Origin: Natronococcus sp. A-GB7
Lineage (GTDB): Archaea > Halobacteriota > Halobacteria > Halobacteriales > Natrialbaceae
Reading direction: 5' to 3'
Assembly: GCF_029688865.1 (NCBI RefSeq)
Contig: NZ_JARUKV010000008.1
Location: 1-64,000, forward strand
DNA length: 64,000 nucleotides
Numbering within the stretch: position 1 is the first letter of the stretch; each line of letters starts with the position of its first letter. The position numbers were made by a program, and so were the translations under genes. The notes beneath the pieces are model-generated. The model had not been told where the DNA came from, made no database searches, and saw only the letters and a program-made list of their open reading frames with translations. Shown here in pieces: positions 34,003 to 42,832 of the stretch.

Positions 34003-34635
34003 TTAGGCCACCTCCACGGACGGGCCCATCGTCGTCTTCACGAAGACGGAGTCGATGTTCTGGGGACCCTTCTCGAGGTCGGCGTGCAGGCGCCGGAGGA
34101 TCACGTCGATGTTGTCCGAGATGTCCTCGGCGTCCATATCCTCGGCACCGACACGCGTGTGGAACGTGCGGCGGTCCCGGGAACGGATCTGCACGGTGTT
34201 TTTGAGCCGGTTGACGGTCTCGACGACGTCGTCGTCGGGACCGAGCGGGTCCGGCATCTTCCCTCGAGGACCCAGGACGGTACCCAGGTGTCGAGCGATA
34301 TCTTGCATCATCGCTTCCTCGGCGATGAAGAACTGAGTCTCGTCCGCGAGGTCTTTGGCCTCGTCGTCGTCCAGATCGGCCACGTCGCTCTCCGAGAGTA
34401 CCTCGTCCGCGACCTCCTCGGCGCGGACTGCGGTCTCGCCCTCGGCGATGACGACGATCTTGGTCTCTTGGCCGGTTCCGGACGGCAGGACGACCGACTC
34501 ATCGACACGGTTCGACGGTTCGTTCAGGTCGAGATCGCGCAGGTTAATCGCGAGGTCGACCGTCTCGGTGAAGTTCCGATCGGGTGCGTCCTCGAGTGCG
34601 CGAGTGACTGCTGTTTGAATATCCGAATCTGCCAT
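34003..34635 (-). CDS. rpl1: Ribosomal protein L1
   Basis: L1 stalk protein of 210 residues, also an mRNA-binding autoregulator in archaea. Two-domain fold with [20 protein letters not shown] as the recognisable rRNA-binding region. It is first in the operon. A TATA element (34723-34728 on the minus strand, TTTAAG) lies about 90 bp upstream, giving a leader of roughly 60 nt that contains a hairpin. Confidence 0.97.
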
Positions 34636-34824: not shown

Positions 34825-35205
34825 ATGGCCGACCCCGCCGCCGACCTCGAGTTCGAGTCGCTCACGCCGACCCACTGGGCGGCGATCGGGCTGGCGGCGG
34901 TCACCGCCGCGGTCCACCTGCTCCTCGGTCTCTCCTTTCTGCCCCACTGGATGGGTGTGGCCTTCCTGGTCGCGACCGCGGGGTTCCTGCTGGGTATCTG
35001 GCTCGTCCTCGCCGACCACCGACGGCGTCTCGTCTATCTCGTCGGGATCCCGTTCATCGGCGCTCAGATCGTCCTCTGGTACGTCCTCAACGAGCCGACC
35101 GGGCTCGCCGACGTCACGGTCGCCGGCGCGGTCGACAAGGTCGCACAGGCGCTGTTGATCGTCGCGCTCGTCGTTCTGCTGATCCGCGGGGACCGAGAGC
35201 CGTGA
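34825..35205 (+). CDS. Four-helix membrane protein of unknown function
   Basis: 126 residues with four predicted transmembrane segments (about 22-38, 44-60, 68-86 and 101-120). No family recognised with confidence. Its stop overlaps the GTG start of the CDP-alcohol phosphatidyltransferase gene, so it is the first gene of that unit and may form a complex with it. Confidence 0.75.
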   Translation: MADPAADLEFESLTPTHWAAIGLAAVTAAVHLLLGLSFLPHWMGVAFLVATAGFLLGIWLVLADHRRRLVYLVGIPFIGAQIVLWYVLNEPTGLADVTVAGAVDKVAQALLIVALVVLLIRGDREP

Positions 35206-35951
35206 CGACCGATCCCCTCGAGCGACGACGCCCGACGGTCCCCCAGTGGGGACGGGCCACGGCAGGCTGTGTCACGTCCGCGCTCCTCGCGCTGTTCGCC
35301 CTCGAGACGGTCTGGCCCGGCGGGCCGACGATCGCCTTTCTGGGGGTCGTCGCGGGCGTTCTCGTCCTCGAGTCCGCACTGTTGTTCCGGACGATCGACC
35401 GCGCCAGCGCCCGGTCGCTTACATCCGCGACGTGGGTGACCCTGGCACGCGGCGGGGCGGTCGCGGTTCTGGCCGGCTTCCTCGTCGTCCCGATACCCGA
35501 CGGCCCCGTCGCGTGGGCGCCGGCGGTCCTCTTCGCGCTGGCGGCCGGGCTCGACGCCGTCGACGGTCTCATCGCGCGGGCGACCGACTCGACGACCGAA
35601 CTCGGGGCGCGACTCGACGTCGAGATGGACGGACTGGTCGTCCTCGTCGGCTCGGTCGTCGCCGTCGTCGCCGACGCGGTTCCGATCGCGTTCCTCGCCG
35701 TAGGTGCGGCCCGGTACCTGTTCGTACTGGGCTCGTGGTGGCGACGGCGACGCGGTCGGCGGGTTCTCGAGTTACCGCCCAGCCGGGTGCGGCGCCCGCT
35801 CGGGGCGCTGGCGATGGCGACCGTCTCGCTCGCGCTGGCACCGGTTCCCGGCCGAACGATCTCTTACACGGTCGCCGCGGTCGTAACGGTGCCGTTCCTC
35901 GCGAATTTCTGTCGGGACTGGCTCGCCGTCTGTGGCTACGACGTGCCGTAG
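35202..35951 (+). CDS. CDP-alcohol phosphatidyltransferase family protein
   Basis: Integral membrane enzyme of 249 residues that transfers a phosphoalcohol from a CDP-linked donor. The catalytic signature D-x2-D-G-x2-A-R-x8-G-x3-D-x3-D is complete from DAVDGLIARATD to LDVEMD (about residues 112-137). Unusually there are two or three hydrophobic segments before the signature. The GTG start overlaps the previous stop (GTGA). The lipid or soluble acceptor is not evident; in context it may act in the adjacent pterin/glycosyltransferase cluster. Confidence 0.88.
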   Translation: MTTDPLERRRPTVPQWGRATAGCVTSALLALFALETVWPGGPTIAFLGVVAGVLVLESALLFRTIDRASARSLTSATWVTLARGGAVAVLAGFLVVPIPDGPVAWAPAVLFALAAGLDAVDGLIARATDSTTELGARLDVEMDGLVVLVGSVVAVVADAVPIAFLAVGAARYLFVLGSWWRRRRGRRVLELPPSRVRRPLGALAMATVSLALAPVPGRTISYTVAAVVTVPFLANFCRDWLAVCGYDVP

Positions 35952-36054
35952 CACGGACAACGACCAAGTACCTCCCCGCGGAACCGTTCCGTACAGTGAT
36001 CTCTCTCCCCGACAGACCGGACGCCGTCGTCTGGGCCGACGACGGGAGGGCCGG

Positions 36055-37068
36055 ATGAACGCGCGTCGGCTCCGCTTTACTGCACCCCGATCGGTCGCCG
36101 TCCGAACCGAGCCGGTTCCGGAACCCGGCCCCGAGGAGGTGCGGGTCCGGACGACCGTCTCGGCGATCAGCGCCGGCACCGAGGGGCTGCTCTACCGGGG
36201 CGAGGCCCCGTCCGATCTCGAGGCCGACGCCGAACTCGACGCCCTCGACGGTGATCTCTCCTACCCCCTCTCGTACGGCTACGCCGCCGTCGGCACCGTG
36301 ACTGCCGTCGGCGACCGCGTCGACGATGACTGGCTCGATCGCCAGGTGTTCGCGTACAACCCCCACGAGAGCCACTTCTGTCGCTCCCCCGACGAACTAC
36401 TTCCGGTACCCGAGACGGTCGACTCCCGCGAGGCCGCGCTCTTTGCGACCCTCGAGACGGCGGCCACATTCGTCCTCGACGGCCGGCCGCTGCTGGGCGA
36501 GCGGGTGGCCGTGTTCGGACAGGGGGTCGTCGGCCTCCTGACGACGGCGCTGCTCGCCCGCTTCCCCCTCGAGGAACTCGTCGTCTTCGACCGGTACGAG
36601 CGACGGCGCGAGCTCGCGACGGCGCTCGGCGCGGATCGAGCGCTCGACCCGGATGAAGACGATGTCGCCGAGCGGTTCGCCGAGCTCGCCGGCGGACGGG
36701 CGGATCTCACCTACGAGCTGTCGGGCAACCCCGACGCGCTCGACGACGCGATCTCGACGACGGGGTTCGACGGCCGGGTCCTCGTCGGGTCGTGGTACGG
36801 GACGAAGCCGGCGACGGTCGATCTCGGCGGCCGTTTCCACCGCAACCGGATCGACCTCCGGAGCAGCCAGGTGAGCACCATCGCGCCCGATCTCTCCGGA
36901 CGATGGGACCGAGACCGCCGCCACGAGACGACCTGGGACCGCCTCCGGGAGCTCGAGCTCTCCGGACTGATAACTCACGAGTTTCCGCTCGAGGACGCCG
37001 ACGAGGCCTACGAGCGCCTCGAGAACTGTCCCGGGTCGACGATCCAAGTGCTGTTGACGTACGAGTGA
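36055..37068 (+). CDS. Medium-chain dehydrogenase/reductase without catalytic zinc site (BchC-like)
   Basis: MDR-superfamily protein of 337 residues. The N-terminal part has VSAISAGTEGLLYRGEAP, as in the BchC-like branch; the usual GHE zinc signature is replaced by YGYAAVGTV. The cofactor site VAVFGQGVVGLLTTALLAR (about 163) is intact. It probably reduces or oxidises a polyol- or sugar-like side chain. The ATG at 36055 has a GGAGGGCCGG leader. Confidence 0.88.
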   Translation: MNARRLRFTAPRSVAVRTEPVPEPGPEEVRVRTTVSAISAGTEGLLYRGEAPSDLEADAELDALDGDLSYPLSYGYAAVGTVTAVGDRVDDDWLDRQVFAYNPHESHFCRSPDELLPVPETVDSREAALFATLETAATFVLDGRPLLGERVAVFGQGVVGLLTTALLARFPLEELVVFDRYERRRELATALGADRALDPDEDDVAERFAELAGGRADLTYELSGNPDALDDAISTTGFDGRVLVGSWYGTKPATVDLGGRFHRNRIDLRSSQVSTIAPDLSGRWDRDRRHETTWDRLRELELSGLITHEFPLEDADEAYERLENCPGSTIQVLLTYE

Positions 37069-37144
37069 GCGCTCCGTTCAATTCTACGCGAACGTGTATG
37101 TACGCAAGCCTGTAGTTGATCTTGATGGGTTACGAGAACGGCGT

Positions 37145-37294
37145 ATGGACCGAGAGATCAGAGCAAGCTGTCCGAGCTGCGAGTCCGGAACAGCGGGTGA
37201 GATCGAGAAACACCGGAACGGAGCGCAGGTGACGGCGACGATGACCTGTGCCGACTGCGGGAACGAGTGGTCGAGAAGCCTGCGGCGCGAGTAG
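37145..37294 (+). CDS. Small zinc-ribbon protein
   Basis: 49 residues with two CxxC pairs (CPSC near residue 9 and CADC near 36) and EIEKHRNGAQVTATMTC between them, a TFIIS-like zinc ribbon. It lies between the dehydrogenase and pterin-synthase-like genes in the same direction. The function is unknown. Confidence 0.75.
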   Translation: MDREIRASCPSCESGTAGEIEKHRNGAQVTATMTCADCGNEWSRSLRRE

Positions 37295-37339
37295 GCGTCC
37301 GGCACAGCAGTTTACACGACCCCGCTCGTAGGTCGTGGC

Positions 37340-37717
37340 ATGTACGCCGTCTCCGTCGACCGGTCGCTCGTCGCCCAACACTACCTGACCGTCCCCGATC
37401 CGGGTCCGGAGGGAGAGCCCCACTCCCATCACTTTAGGGTCGAGGCGACCTTTCGGGGGCCGGAGCTGAACCGCTTCGAATACCTCGTCGACATCGACGC
37501 GGTGACGGCCGCGATGGACGCGGTCGCCGACCGCTACCGTGACGAGCTGCTCAACGACCTACCGGAGTTCGAGGACGCGAACCCGAGCGCCGAGCGGTTC
37601 GCCCGCGCGTTCGGGGACCGTCTGCTCGACGAGCTCGAGCCCGAGGGCGCGACCGAGCTCCGTATCGAAATCGCCGAGGACGACGTGGCCCGCGTCGCCC
37701 ACGAGCGGTCGCTGTAG
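37340..37717 (+). CDS. 6-pyruvoyltetrahydropterin synthase/QueD homologue lacking cysteine
   Basis: T-fold protein of 125 residues. Zinc ligands are H14 (AQHYL) and H28/H30 (HSHHF). The product has no cysteine at all, so the catalytic Cys that lies four residues before the HxH in PTPS and QueD is missing; Glu24 and Glu26 sit in that area, reminiscent of PTPS-III enzymes that use Glu. The pterin-anchoring Glu is likely in TELRIEIAEDD. The gene abuts the glycosyltransferase gene with zero spacing. Confidence 0.85.
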   Translation: MYAVSVDRSLVAQHYLTVPDPGPEGEPHSHHFRVEATFRGPELNRFEYLVDIDAVTAAMDAVADRYRDELLNDLPEFEDANPSAERFARAFGDRLLDELEPEGATELRIEIAEDDVARVAHERSL

Positions 37718-38794
37718 ATGGAGGTCGGACTCGTCGTCCCCGACGACCTCGAGACGACCTCCGGCGGCTACCGGTACGATCGCCGGCTCGTCGCCGAACT
37801 CCGGGCTCTGGGAGACGACGTCGAGGTGATCGTCCTCTCGACCGTGCCCGACGACGACGTTCGCGCCCGACTCGACCGTCCGTTCGACGTTCTGTTACAG
37901 GACGAACTCTGCTACGACCAACTCGTCGACTGCAGTTCGAGTCCCGAGTCGCCCGAACTCGTCGTCTCGCTCGTCCACAACCTCCAGTCCGACGACCCCT
38001 CGCTCGCAAGTCGGAAGCGAGAACGGATCCGCGAGCGCGAGCGACGCTACCTCGAGACCGTCGACGCGGCCGTCTGTACGAGCGCCCACACCCGGAACCG
38101 GGTCGCCGAGTCGGTCGACCTGCCGACGACGGTCGCCCCTCCGGCGGGTCGCCACGAGACGCTCCCGGTCGATCGCTCGGCGGTCGTCGCCCGCGTGAGA
38201 GAGGGTCCGCTGCGGATCGCGTTCGTCGGAAACCTCGTTCCCCGAAAGGGTCTCGAGGCACTGCTCGAGGCGGTTTCCCGGCTCGAGGGTGATTGGGAGC
38301 TGACCGTGGTCGGCGGCGAGGCCGATCCGGAGTACGCGACGCGGATACGCGACCGGGTCGAATCGCTCGAGGTCGACGACCGGGTCGAGTTCGCTGGCCG
38401 CGTTCCAGAGAATGCTCTCGAGTCGATCTACGAACGGAGCCACGTGCTCGCGGTCCCCTCCCGACACGAGGCGTTCGGCATGGTCTACCTCGAGGGAATG
38501 GAGTACGGCGCCGTCCCGATCGCCAGCCGGAACGGGGGTTCGAGCGAGTTCGTCGCCGACGGTGAGAACGGCTTTCTCGTCGCGCCCGAAGCCCCCGACC
38601 GAATCGCGGCCCGTCTCGAGGAACTCGCCGCCGACCGGGACCGGCTCGCGAGTCTCGGTGCCCGAGCGCTCGAGACCGCGGACGCCCACCCCTGGTGGAC
38701 CGAGACGGCGACGACGGTTCGGTCGTTCCTGCGACGCGGGCTCGAGGAGGAGTTCGAGTCGACCGGTGCCGAGAGCGGGGAGGCGAGCCCGTGA
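37718..38794 (+). CDS. GT4-family glycosyltransferase
   Basis: GT-B glycosyltransferase of 358 residues. The donor-binding half starts at RIAFVGNLVPRKGLEALLEAV (about 165), and the E-x7-E signature lies in PSRHEAFGMVYLEGMEYG (about 247). It is cytosolic. The acceptor is unknown; context suggests a pterin-derived or lipid acceptor. The ATG directly follows the PTPS-like stop, and its own stop overlaps the next GTG start, so all three genes are coupled. Confidence 0.9.
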   Translation: MEVGLVVPDDLETTSGGYRYDRRLVAELRALGDDVEVIVLSTVPDDDVRARLDRPFDVLLQDELCYDQLVDCSSSPESPELVVSLVHNLQSDDPSLASRKRERIRERERRYLETVDAAVCTSAHTRNRVAESVDLPTTVAPPAGRHETLPVDRSAVVARVREGPLRIAFVGNLVPRKGLEALLEAVSRLEGDWELTVVGGEADPEYATRIRDRVESLEVDDRVEFAGRVPENALESIYERSHVLAVPSRHEAFGMVYLEGMEYGAVPIASRNGGSSEFVADGENGFLVAPEAPDRIAARLEELAADRDRLASLGARALETADAHPWWTETATTVRSFLRRGLEEEFESTGAESGEASP

Positions 38795-39744
38795 CCGACC
38801 AGCGAACGTATCTCGAGGTGAAGCGAACCGTCGACGATCGGGCGCTGAACCGACGGGTGCTCGAGCGGTTCGTCGAGGGGCTCGACGCGCGCTCGAGTCC
38901 GGTCCGGATCGTCGAGATCGGCGCCGGGATCGGCACGATGATCGCCCGGCTGGCGGCGTGGGACTGCCTTCCGGACGAGGTCGCCTACCGCGCCGTCGAC
39001 CGGGACGCCGAAAGCGTTCGATACGCACGCGAGCGCGTCCCTGAGTGGCTCGAAGACGCGGGCTACGCGGTCGAACGACTCGAGGACGATCGGGGAGGGA
39101 CGACGCTGCTCGCTCGATCGGGCGGGCAGCGACTCGAGGTCACGCTCGAGGTCGCCGACGGATTCGAGATCGAGGACCGGGCCGACGCCGTGATCGCGTC
39201 GGCGGTGCTGGATATCGTCGACCTCGAGCGGGCGGTCCCGGCGATCGAGGCGCTGCTCGAGCCCGACGGGCTGCTGTACGCCCCGATCACGTTCGACGGC
39301 GGGACGACGTTCGCGCCGCCGGACCCGGCCGACGACCGGATCGAGCGCCGCTACCACCACCACATGGACGCCGTGCGATCGGCGGGCGGAAGTCGGGTCG
39401 GCCGCGAGCTGCTGTGGCGACTTCCCGACGCCGGCTGGTCAGTGCTTGAGGCCGGCGGCTCGGACTGGGTGGTTCGGCCCCGCGCCGAGGGAGCGAGAGC
39501 AGGGACGGAGACAGAGACAGAGATGGAGTATCCCGACGGAGAACGGTCGTTCCTCGAGGGTCTGCTCGAGACGATCGACGGCGCGCTCGCCGAACTCGAG
39601 ACCGACGAGCGCGAATCCGGGATCGGCGACCTCGAGCCTGCCGAGCGACGACGGTGGCTCGAGCGGCGTCGGAACGAACTCGAGAGCGGAGAACTGGTGT
39701 TCGTGGCGCACAACCTGGACGTCCTCGCGCGTCCGCCCGAGTAA
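38791..39744 (+). CDS. SAM-dependent methyltransferase
   Basis: Class I methyltransferase of 317 residues. Motif I is VRIVEIGAGIGTMIARL (about 38-54); acidic motif II is in YRAVDRDAE; motif III is near ALLEPDGLLYAPITF. A short Glu-Thr hexamer repeat (TETETEME) interrupts the C-terminal part. The GTG start overlaps the glycosyltransferase stop by 4 bp. It is the last gene of the cluster; a perfect hairpin (GACGCT-ACGG-AGCGTC, 39756-39771) follows before the convergent L11 gene. Confidence 0.88.
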   Translation: MTDQRTYLEVKRTVDDRALNRRVLERFVEGLDARSSPVRIVEIGAGIGTMIARLAAWDCLPDEVAYRAVDRDAESVRYARERVPEWLEDAGYAVERLEDDRGGTTLLARSGGQRLEVTLEVADGFEIEDRADAVIASAVLDIVDLERAVPAIEALLEPDGLLYAPITFDGGTTFAPPDPADDRIERRYHHHMDAVRSAGGSRVGRELLWRLPDAGWSVLEAGGSDWVVRPRAEGARAGTETETEMEYPDGERSFLEGLLETIDGALAELETDERESGIGDLEPAERRRWLERRRNELESGELVFVAHNLDVLARPPE

Positions 39745-39802: not shown

Positions 39803-40279
39803 TTACGCCGACAGCGCGTCGTCGTACTCGCCGGCGTCGACCTTCTCCTTGAACTCGCGGGCGTCGTCGCCCTCGATGGTGACACCCATCGAGGCACAGG
39901 TGCCGACGACCTCTTTCGCGGCGTTTCGCGTGTCGTAGGCGAGCAGGTCGGGGTGTTTCTGCTCGGCGATCGTCTTCACCTGATCGATCGAGAGGTCGGC
40001 GACGAAGTCCTTCTGGGGTTCGCCGCTGCCGGTGTCGAAGCCGGCCTCGTCTTTGACCAGCGCGGCCGTCGGCGGGACGCCGACGTCGATCTCGAAGGAG
40101 CCGTCGTCGTCGTAGTCGACGGTGACGGGTACTTCGGTGCCGTCGAACGCTTCGGTCTGGTCGTTGATCTCCTGTACGACCGCCTGCACGTCGACGGGGG
40201 TCGGTCCGAGCTCGGGACCGAGCGGTGGGCCAGGGTTGGCCTGGCCACCCGGAACGAGCACTTCGATGGTTCCAGCCAT
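39803..40279 (-). CDS. rpl11: Ribosomal protein L11
   Basis: L11 of 158 residues, GTPase-centre rRNA-binding protein. N-terminal proline-rich segment GGQANPGPPLGPELGPTPVD and C-terminal RNA-binding GTCASMGVTIEG are present. It has its own TATA element (CTTAAAA on the minus strand, 40303-40309), about 25-30 bp upstream of the ATG, implying a nearly leaderless mRNA. It is separated from L1-L10-L12 by seven opposing genes. Confidence 0.97.
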   Translation of the reverse strand: MAGTIEVLVPGGQANPGPPLGPELGPTPVDVQAVVQEINDQTEAFDGTEVPVTVDYDDDGSFEIDVGVPPTAALVKDEAGFDTGSGEPQKDFVADLSIDQVKTIAEQKHPDLLAYDTRNAAKEVVGTCASMGVTIEGDDAREFKEKVDAGEYDDALSA

Positions 40280-40353
40280 ACCCGTCACAACCCGTGCGCG
40301 AGTTTTAAGGATTGCTTTTTCGGGTAGTCGAGCCTGTCACCGACTGGCGCACG

Positions 40354-41134: not shown

Positions 41135-42832
41135 TCAGCAGGCGACCGCCGCCTTCTCGTCGTCGTCCGCGTCGACGGGCTCCTCGAGGTCGTCGTTCTC
41201 GTCGATCGGTTCCTCGGCGTCGTCGTTCACCGGCTCCTCTACGGGCTCATCGTTGACCGGTTCCTCCGGATCGACCGGCTCCTCGACGGCATCGTCATTC
41301 ACCGGCTCCTCCTCTACTGGCTCTTCCTCAACCGGCTCCTCCTCTACGGGTTCTTCCTCATCGACCGGTTCCTCGTCCGGGAGTTCGTCGGCGTCGACGA
41401 TCATGACGAAGATGGTCGCCTCCTCGATCGTTACCTGTAGCACGTCGTCGTCGGGCGCATCGACGTCGTTCTCGTCGGTCGGTTCCTCGACGGCATCGTC
41501 ATCCATCGGCTCCTCCGGATCGACCGGTTCTTCGGGCTCAGCCGGTTCCTCTACGGCCTCGTCGTTCTCGTAGTCGTCGGCCTCGTCGTTCTCGTAGTCG
41601 TCGGCCTCGTCGTTCTCGTAGTCGTCGGCCTCGTCGTTCTCGTAGTCGTCAGCCTCGTCGTTCTCGTAGTCGTCGGCTTCGTCAACCGGTTCCTCCTCGA
41701 TCGGTGCCTCCTGGTGGACGCCGAGATCGACGATGGTCGCCTGCTCGATGGTCACTTCGATCGTTCCCTGGTAGACGAACATGCCGTCGTCGGCGTGTTC
41801 GTCGTCAGCGTAATCGTCCTCGACGCCGTTGTCCTCGAGTTCGTCGTCTTCGACGTCGTTCTCGTCGGCGTCGTCGTCCTCGACACCGTTGTCCTCGAGT
41901 TCGTCGTCCTCGACGTCGGTCTCGTCAGCGTAGTCGTCCTCGACACCGTTGTCCTCGAGTTCGTCGTCTTCGACGTCGTTCTCGTCGGCGTAGTCGTTCT
42001 CGACGTCGTTCTCGTCGATCTCGTCGGGGAGTTCGTCGACGTCTTCGACGATAACGAAGATGGTCGCCTGATCGATCGTCACCTGCTGGTCGTCAGGCGC
42101 GTCGACAGGTTCGTCCTCGAGTTCGTCTTCTTCATCGACATCGTCCTCGAGTTCGTCCTCAGCCTCGTCGTTCTCGTAGTCGTCGGCCTCGTCGTCCTCG
42201 TAGTCGTCAGCCTCGTCGTCCTCGTAGTCGTCGGCTTCGTCGTTCTCGTAGTCGTCGGCTTCGTCAACCGGTTCGTCCTCGAGTTCGTCCTCCTCATCGA
42301 CCGGTTCCTCCTCAACCGGATCCATGACCGGTTCCTCCTCGAGGAGGACGAGCGCGGTCGCCTGGCCGATCGAGATCTCGTGGGCGTCGTCGATGCCGTT
42401 GTCCTCGAGGTCGTTCTCGTCGAGTTCGTCGTTCTCGTCGGCCTCGTCATCGGCGTAGTCGTCATCGTTCTCGTCGGCCTCGTCGTCGGCGTAGTCGTCC
42501 TCGAGTTCGTCGTCGTCCTCGTCGACGGCGTCAGTCTCTTCGTCGGTCTCGTCGACGTCCTCATCGAGCTCGTCCTCCTCGTCAACCGGTTCCTCGTCAA
42601 CCGGCTCGTCGGGGAGGTCGTCGGCGTCCTCGATCAGGACGAAGATAGTTGCCTGTTCGATCGTCACCTGCAACGCTCCGTCGTCAGGAGCGTCTGTCGG
42701 TTCCTCGTCGGCTTCGTCGTTCTCGTAGTCGTCGACGCTGGTTACAGCGGGACCCGCTGCAACGGCTGCGGCTCCGCCCGAGCCCAGCACCATCAGCGCG
42801 ACGACTACGACGAGTATGTTACGTACGCTCAT
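41135..42832 (-). CDS. Secreted acidic protein with five beta-strand repeats
   Basis: 565 residues with a Sec-type signal (about 1-26). The mature part is mostly Asp/Glu with Asn, Val and Pro. Five short hydrophobic repeats occur at residues 56, 153, 251, 359 and 467, consensus VTIEQATIFVLIEDADELPDE, spaced about 97-108 residues; three end in LPDE. The linkers hold tandem YENDEADD octads (205-236 and 389-426), 20-residue units (281-340) and EEPV/VDEE blocks. There is no C-terminal membrane anchor; it ends in AAVAC. No known family. A TATA element (TTTAAG, 42865-42870) is 33 bp upstream. A surface or matrix protein is likely. Confidence 0.75.
   Translation of the reverse strand: MSVRNILVVVVALMVLGSGGAAAVAAGPAVTSVDDYENDEADEEPTDAPDDGALQVTIEQATIFVLIEDADDLPDEPVDEEPVDEEDELDEDVDETDEETDAVDEDDDELEDDYADDEADENDDDYADDEADENDELDENDLEDNGIDDAHEISIGQATALVLLEEEPVMDPVEEEPVDEEDELEDEPVDEADDYENDEADDYEDDEADDYEDDEADDYENDEAEDELEDDVDEEDELEDEPVDAPDDQQVTIDQATIFVIVEDVDELPDEIDENDVENDYADENDVEDDELEDNGVEDDYADETDVEDDELEDNGVEDDDADENDVEDDELEDNGVEDDYADDEHADDGMFVYQGTIEVTIEQATIVDLGVHQEAPIEEEPVDEADDYENDEADDYENDEADDYENDEADDYENDEADDYENDEAVEEPAEPEEPVDPEEPMDDDAVEEPTDENDVDAPDDDVLQVTIEEATIFVMIVDADELPDEEPVDEEEPVEEEPVEEEPVEEEPVNDDAVEEPVDPEEPVNDEPVEEPVNDDAEEPIDENDDLEEPVDADDDEKAAVAC
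41555..41668 (-). repeat. 24-bp tandem repeat coding YENDEADD
   Basis: Nearly five copies of a 24-bp unit inside the acidic protein gene, in frame; the unit encodes YENDEADD. Confidence 0.8.
41813..41992 (-). repeat. 60-bp tandem repeat coding a 20-residue acidic unit
   Basis: Three copies of a unit coding YADENDVEDDELEDNGVEDD with single substitutions, inside the acidic protein gene. Confidence 0.8.
42125..42220 (-). repeat. Second 24-bp tandem repeat coding YE(N/D)DEADD
   Basis: Four octad copies between the second and third beta-strand repeats of the acidic protein. Confidence 0.75.

Follow-up and report, generated by a model that had tools for sequence, protein, structure and literature searches.

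The window considered here is a stretch of 64,000 nucleotides from Natronococcus sp. A-GB7 (contig NZ_JARUKV010000008.1, positions 1 to 64,000 of the forward strand). Its + strand carries, at 34825-39744, seven co-oriented open reading frames, all of them confirmed, which are flanked by the genes of uL1 (34003-34635) and uL11 (39803-40288), both in the opposite direction. Five of the seven form a conserved core that is, slightly more likely than not, the haloarchaeal form of a widespread module, named here the SCO6650 module. Starting from a 2,5-diamino-4-oxopyrimidine nucleotide made from GTP, this module would produce a small molecule that carries a sugar and a methyl group and is probably linked to a membrane lipid or phospho-alcohol. 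The genes are the following.

34825-35205, + strand: DUF7475 small membrane protein, 126 amino acids (PF24287, 35.2 bits, cut-off 31.3)
35202-35951, + strand: CDP-alcohol phosphotransferase (CDP-AP), GTG start, core (PF01066 CDP-OH_P_transf, 47.1 bits, cut-off 22)
36055-37068, + strand: BchC-like medium-chain dehydrogenase, core (PF00107 ADH_zinc_N, 56.3 bits, cut-off 31.8)
37145-37294, + strand: zinc-ribbon protein, 49 amino acids, two CxxC pairs, non-core
37340-37717, + strand: PTPS/QueD-fold protein, core (PF01242, 79.9 bits, cut-off 22.4)
37718-38794, + strand: GT4 glycosyltransferase, core (PF00534 Glycos_transf_1, 126 bits, cut-off 26.4)
38791-39744, + strand: class I S-adenosylmethionine-dependent methyltransferase (MT), GTG start, core (PF08241 Methyltransf_11, 22.8 bits, cut-off 21.2)

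The DUF7475/CDP-AP and GT4/MT pairs overlap by 4 bases (GTGA), the PTPS and GT4 genes follow each other with zero spacing, and the remaining gaps in the cluster measure 45-103 bases. Six of the seven proteins score above their Pfam cut-off; for the zinc ribbon, profile searches of Pfam and NCBIfam returned no family over the cut-off.

Conservation of the five-gene core

Relatives of the window PTPS protein were found in 39 of the 61 genomes compared. Of 38 haloarchaeal loci centred on such a relative, 31 contain the dehydrogenase, 30 GT4, 33 MT and 28 CDP-AP. The conserved core therefore consists of these four genes and the PTPS homologue, all five of which stand together in the window cluster. 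DUF7475 (24 loci) is a frequent companion, and the zinc ribbon lies outside the conserved set, since it was seen in only three of the 38 loci (L032, L035, L067; E<=1e-4). The cluster adjoins uL11 and/or uL1 in 16 of the 38 loci and has other contexts elsewhere. In many genomes of the window's family the cluster lies, as here, between uL1 and uL11 and runs opposite to them. Synteny also extends to plasmids of Haloarcula, Halobellus, Natronorubrum and Haladaptatus.

The core genes are inherited together at the level of whole genomes. MT was found in 36 of the 39 PTPS-positive genomes and in none of the 22 PTPS-negative ones (Fisher p 1e-13), CDP-AP in 34 of 39 and 0 of 22 (p 4e-12), and the dehydrogenase, counted as a match with E below 1e-60 or as a remnant, in 37 of 39 and 1 of 22 (p 4e-13); as genomes and loci are related, these p-values overstate independence. 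Weak or fragmentary MT and CDP-AP matches (G003, G030, G060) were left out of the counts. The co-occurrence holds in three genomes (G019, G020, G049) where parts of the module sit far from the PTPS gene. A first-pass annotation of this DNA had proposed a functional unit of seven genes and had named scattering of the genes in relatives as evidence against it. All seven are indeed present and co-oriented, and the unit narrows to five; its members are mostly together in haloarchaea and co-occur where separated, so that no such scattering was found on checking.

The pathway can be dispensed with and shows decay within the genus, since two genomes keep only broken or partial clusters: G003 retains dehydrogenase fragments with two stops and only a fragment of MT (C1:1446070-1448087), and G008 a broken dehydrogenase with neither GT4 nor MT. 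Cluster remnants are seen in two congeners (G003; L067), with MT fragmentary or absent and dehydrogenase fragments containing stops. In Haloarcula (L169:4827-6797), at L052 and in some other haloarchaea, an oxidoreductase of the GFO/IDH type adjoins the cluster; its annotation in Haloarcula is aldo/keto reductase. On the Haloarcula marismortui plasmid pNG700, the dehydrogenase, GT4 and CDP-AP are annotated, a hypothetical protein further downstream occupies the MT position, and the PTPS match lies between dehydrogenase and GT4; this PTPS relative (L169:9001-9276), unlike its neighbours, is not listed as a gene in PLSDB.

The conservation reaches bacteria. Because a mixed haloarchaeal and bacterial PTPS alignment lacked a stretch conserved enough for scanning, bacterial sequences alone were used. 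The genome scan covered the best 80 of at least 589 PTPS relatives, ranked by similarity to bacterial PTPS and thus not a random sample. Within the 87 bacterial loci compared, the dehydrogenase occurs in 86, GT4 in 83, MT in 81 and CDP-AP in 75; further genes are the RibD reductase domain (59), an LPG-synthase-TM protein (54), RibA, a GTP cyclohydrolase II (44), and a creatininase-family protein (38), and an FkbM methyltransferase was also seen in this context. The plasmid search and the genome scan together found the five-gene core in Thiodictyon, Streptomyces, Methylosinus, Peteryoungia and Microbacterium, as well as in many Halomonas, Variovorax and actinobacterial genomes. Profile comparisons between haloarchaeal and bacterial proteins (dehydrogenase, 36% identity, E 3.9e-72; GT4, E 2.4e-55; CDP-AP, E 5.5e-33; MT, E 7.4e-30) indicate that the core proteins of both domains are homologous. 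One PTPS relative, in Streptomyces anthocyanicus (L076), stands without the cluster. A short contig with bacterial-looking content inside a haloarchaeal assembly (L069; G005:C164) carries the bacterial form of the core and very probably reflects contamination, for which this assembly has a listed value of 7%. A scan of viral contigs with the bacterial PTPS gave no match.

The PTPS-fold protein and its companions

By its PF01242 profile and its fold, the window protein belongs to the PTPS/QueD superfamily. An AlphaFold2 model, for which the window protein was aligned with its bacterial relatives, has a pLDDT of 94.2, and its nearest fold in Foldseek is Streptomyces coelicolor SCO6650 (TM 0.87), which is also the closest PDB entry by sequence (3d7j, E 5.6e-8). 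SCO6650 is reported to lack the catalytic triad and PTPS activity.

The conserved positions set the protein apart from the QueD, PTPS-II and PTPS-III types. In the column of the catalytic Cys, 36 of 37 haloarchaeal sequences have Glu (Glu24 in the window protein) and one has Asp, the 87 bacterial sequences have Ala, and four haloarchaeal paralogues taken as controls have Cys within a CxxxHGH motif; as these controls were chosen by that motif, they illustrate the column and do not test it. His14 and His28 occur in haloarchaeal, bacterial and control groups alike, and Asp51, Glu85 and Glu113, the last being the anchor residue, are invariant across all three. Compared with the SCO6650 group, haloarchaeal proteins thus keep H14/H28/H30 with Glu in the Cys column, whereas bacterial relatives have Ala both there and at position 30. 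None of three motifs listed for PTPS proteins (PMC5041015, which calls PTPS-V unclear) occurs in the window protein, although the fold and the Glu anchor are shared: the CxxxHGH of QueD/PTPS-I is absent, HSH replacing HGH; the CxxxxxHGH of PTPS-II is absent from a protein devoid of any Cys; and the ExxHGH of PTPS-III is absent, Glu24 lying four residues before His28 instead of three, and the residue after it, at position 25, being Gly in 34 of the 37 haloarchaeal homologues.

The companions can be described by family. DUF7475 has four hydrophobic segments. The CDP-AP carries the motif DAVDGLIARATDSTTELGARLDVEMD at residue 118 and the signature DxxDGxxAR(8)GxxxDxxxD. In the dehydrogenase, S39, G41, E43, Y74-G75-Y76, H104, S246-W247, H262 and Q272 show a conservation of 1.00 over 115 haloarchaeal and bacterial sequences; its score against the BchC model (TIGR01202) is 73.2 bits for a cut-off of 291.25, and the likeness to BchC is a resemblance only. 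The AlphaFold2 model of MT reaches a pLDDT of 89.5 and its Foldseek matches are generic small-molecule methyltransferases, which do not narrow the substrate.

GTP-opening enzymes near the module

The ring of GTP is opened in two steps in bacteria and archaea (PMC9478397), and deletion of the GTP cyclohydrolase III gene makes Haloferax a riboflavin auxotroph (PMC8305020). In nine genomes (G013, G015, G025, G043, G045, G049, G054, G055, G058), GTP cyclohydrolase III adjoins the dehydrogenase or sits in the cluster, for example after MT in G055 and before PTPS in G049. Seven of these nine are the only genomes among the 61 with two copies of GTP cyclohydrolase III. The window cluster itself holds no gene for a GTP-to-diaminopyrimidine enzyme; the window genome has a single GTP cyclohydrolase III, outside the window and about 127 kb away, together with one RibD_C gene and five genes of the creatininase family. 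At L052, at L065 and on plasmids of Haloarcula, the cluster has a creatininase-family gene nearby.

RibA, creatininase and RibD fill the corresponding places in bacterial loci. The creatininase-family protein is presumably a deformylase; the Streptomyces representative is nearer the mycofactocin MftE model than the ArfB model and below both cut-offs. Queries with E. coli GTP cyclohydrolase I and lumazine synthase gave no match in the 87 bacterial loci, and the E. coli RibA query gave the 44 matches mentioned above. Since the linked cyclohydrolases are GTP cyclohydrolase III or RibA and no GTP cyclohydrolase I turned up in the bacterial loci, the precursor is more likely a diaminopyrimidine nucleotide. 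The module thereby resembles the archaeal entry route to riboflavin and F420 (GTP cyclohydrolase III, ArfB, ArfC) in the kinds of first-step enzymes linked to it; it differs in the missing lumazine synthase of the bacterial loci and in the second GTP cyclohydrolase III that seven haloarchaea have by the cluster.

In Streptomyces other than S. coelicolor, the same core adjoins creatininase and RibA. SCO6655, encoded near SCO6650, is presumably a producer of formylaminopyrimidine, which we take to go with its loss of the RibA residue Tyr105. At the position equivalent to E. coli 105, the 44 bacterial RibA sequences have Tyr (25), Met (12), His (6) or Cys (1). Creatininase is present at all 19 non-Tyr loci and absent at the six actinobacterial Tyr loci, as expected if both arrangements yield the same deformylated pyrimidine.

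Beyond uL11, at 41135-42832 (- strand), a very acidic protein of 565 amino acids has a signal-like start followed by many near-identical repeats (e.g. DDYENDEA).

A candidate pathway and its alternatives

The sequence comparison shows a module that is co-inherited, conserved across domains and associated with GTP-opening and deformylation steps. What it acts on, the order of its steps, what it makes and how a lipid is attached we infer as follows. GTP would be opened to a formylaminopyrimidine nucleotide by GTP cyclohydrolase III in haloarchaea or by a RibA-type enzyme in bacteria and, where needed, a creatininase-family deformylase would convert it to 2,5-diamino-6-ribosylamino-4(3H)-pyrimidinone 5'-phosphate, which a RibD-type reductase may reduce in bacteria. 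The PTPS-fold protein retains the Glu that anchors pterins and lacks the Cys chemistry; it would close or rearrange the ring system towards a pteridine, alongside which the BchC-like dehydrogenase would adjust the oxidation state. Glycosylation by GT4 and methylation by MT would follow, and the CDP-AP would attach the product to a lipid; in bacteria, an LPG-synthase-type flippase would move it. Where no GTP cyclohydrolase III is clustered, haloarchaea would rely on the housekeeping copy. The window genome would thus draw on the riboflavin/F420 precursor pool, because its one GTP cyclohydrolase III lies outside the window. More tentatively, and with considerable doubt, the product could be a new class of membrane-anchored glycosylated pteridine of archaea and bacteria, made by a split GTP cyclohydrolase I reaction in which GTP cyclohydrolase II or III and a deformylase would provide the diaminopyrimidine, leaving closure of the second ring to a separate PTPS-fold enzyme that lacks the catalytic Cys.

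Several observations weigh against this pathway, in addition to the relatedness of the genomes compared. For none of the core enzymes has a substrate been demonstrated. The zinc-type triad differs, His30 of haloarchaea and controls being Ala in bacteria, so that the PTPS-fold step may differ between haloarchaea and bacteria. RibD and the flippase were not found beside the haloarchaeal clusters, and five PTPS-positive genomes (G015, G025, G029, G043, G054) have no CDP-AP. Furthermore, 17 other RibA Tyr loci, proteobacterial or acidobacterial, also have a creatininase relative, so that the RibA/creatininase pattern is clean only within actinobacteria, and the meaning given to Tyr105 is presumptive. 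Finally, the cluster subfamily may be PTPS-IV, whose role in F420 synthesis has been mentioned as unpublished data (PMC5041015).

This last point leads to an explanation that we hold to be unlikely, in which the PTPS homologue serves an offshoot of F420 or flavin metabolism, with a deazaflavin or flavin being decorated by the products of the remaining genes. The clustering of GTP cyclohydrolase III, the first step of that route, in nine genomes would suit it; the bacterial loci without lumazine synthase, and the bacterial regions read, in which no FO synthase is annotated, do not. A conventional neopterin- or biopterin-type glycoside made from dihydroneopterin, like cyanobacterial pterin glycosides or archaeal charged pterins, is less probable still. 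The retained Glu anchor, and the pairing of a PTPS fold with a glycosyltransferase, recall the cyanobacterial pathway (cyanopterin, PgtA; PMC3546692). However, the catalytic Cys and the PTPS-II and PTPS-III motifs are absent, and the cyanobacterial compounds depend on GTP cyclohydrolase I, for which the bacterial loci gave no match. About as improbable as the conventional glycoside, or slightly more so, is a polar-lipid or surface-glycan cluster that recruited the PTPS homologue for chemistry unrelated to pyrimidines or pterins: glycolipid synthesis typically involves CDP-AP, GT4 and MT and, as in the bacterial loci, a flippase and an FkbM methyltransferase, yet the module is repeatedly accompanied by distinct enzymes that lead from GTP to a diaminopyrimidine, among them a second copy of GTP cyclohydrolase III.

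That the protein is simply the archaeosine enzyme QueD amid incidental neighbours is barely credible: QueD is its top NCBIfam match (40.7 bits, below the 89.25 cut-off), but the window genome encodes another PTPS-family protein, most tested genomes without the cluster retain such a gene, the four paralogues from relatives that carry the QueD-typical CxxxHGH are separate from the cluster gene, and the cluster neighbours are strongly conserved. Judged by these features, the cluster homologue is not QueD, and they indicate that proteins of its subfamily receive a misleading name when automatic annotation labels them 6-carboxytetrahydropterin synthase. Besides QueD identity, the readings given low weight include ordinary pterin synthesis and a plain riboflavin cluster.

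The first-pass annotation is supported in part. At the heart of the cluster stands a PTPS homologue that retains a pterin-type binding Glu, and the likely chemistries, as the annotation proposed, are the transfer of a sugar, of a methyl group and of a lipid-type head group. The modification of an ordinary pterin that it also envisaged fits poorly with a homologue lacking the QueD, PTPS-II and PTPS-III motifs and with the kinds of cyclohydrolases found.

No description of the module was found in the literature searched. A pathway with no assigned product, conserved across haloarchaea, actinobacteria and proteobacteria, would represent a sizeable metabolic gap. The comparison yields a testable precursor, a formylamino- or diaminopyrimidine nucleotide, and candidate key residues of the PTPS-fold protein: Glu24, H14, H28, H30 and Glu113.

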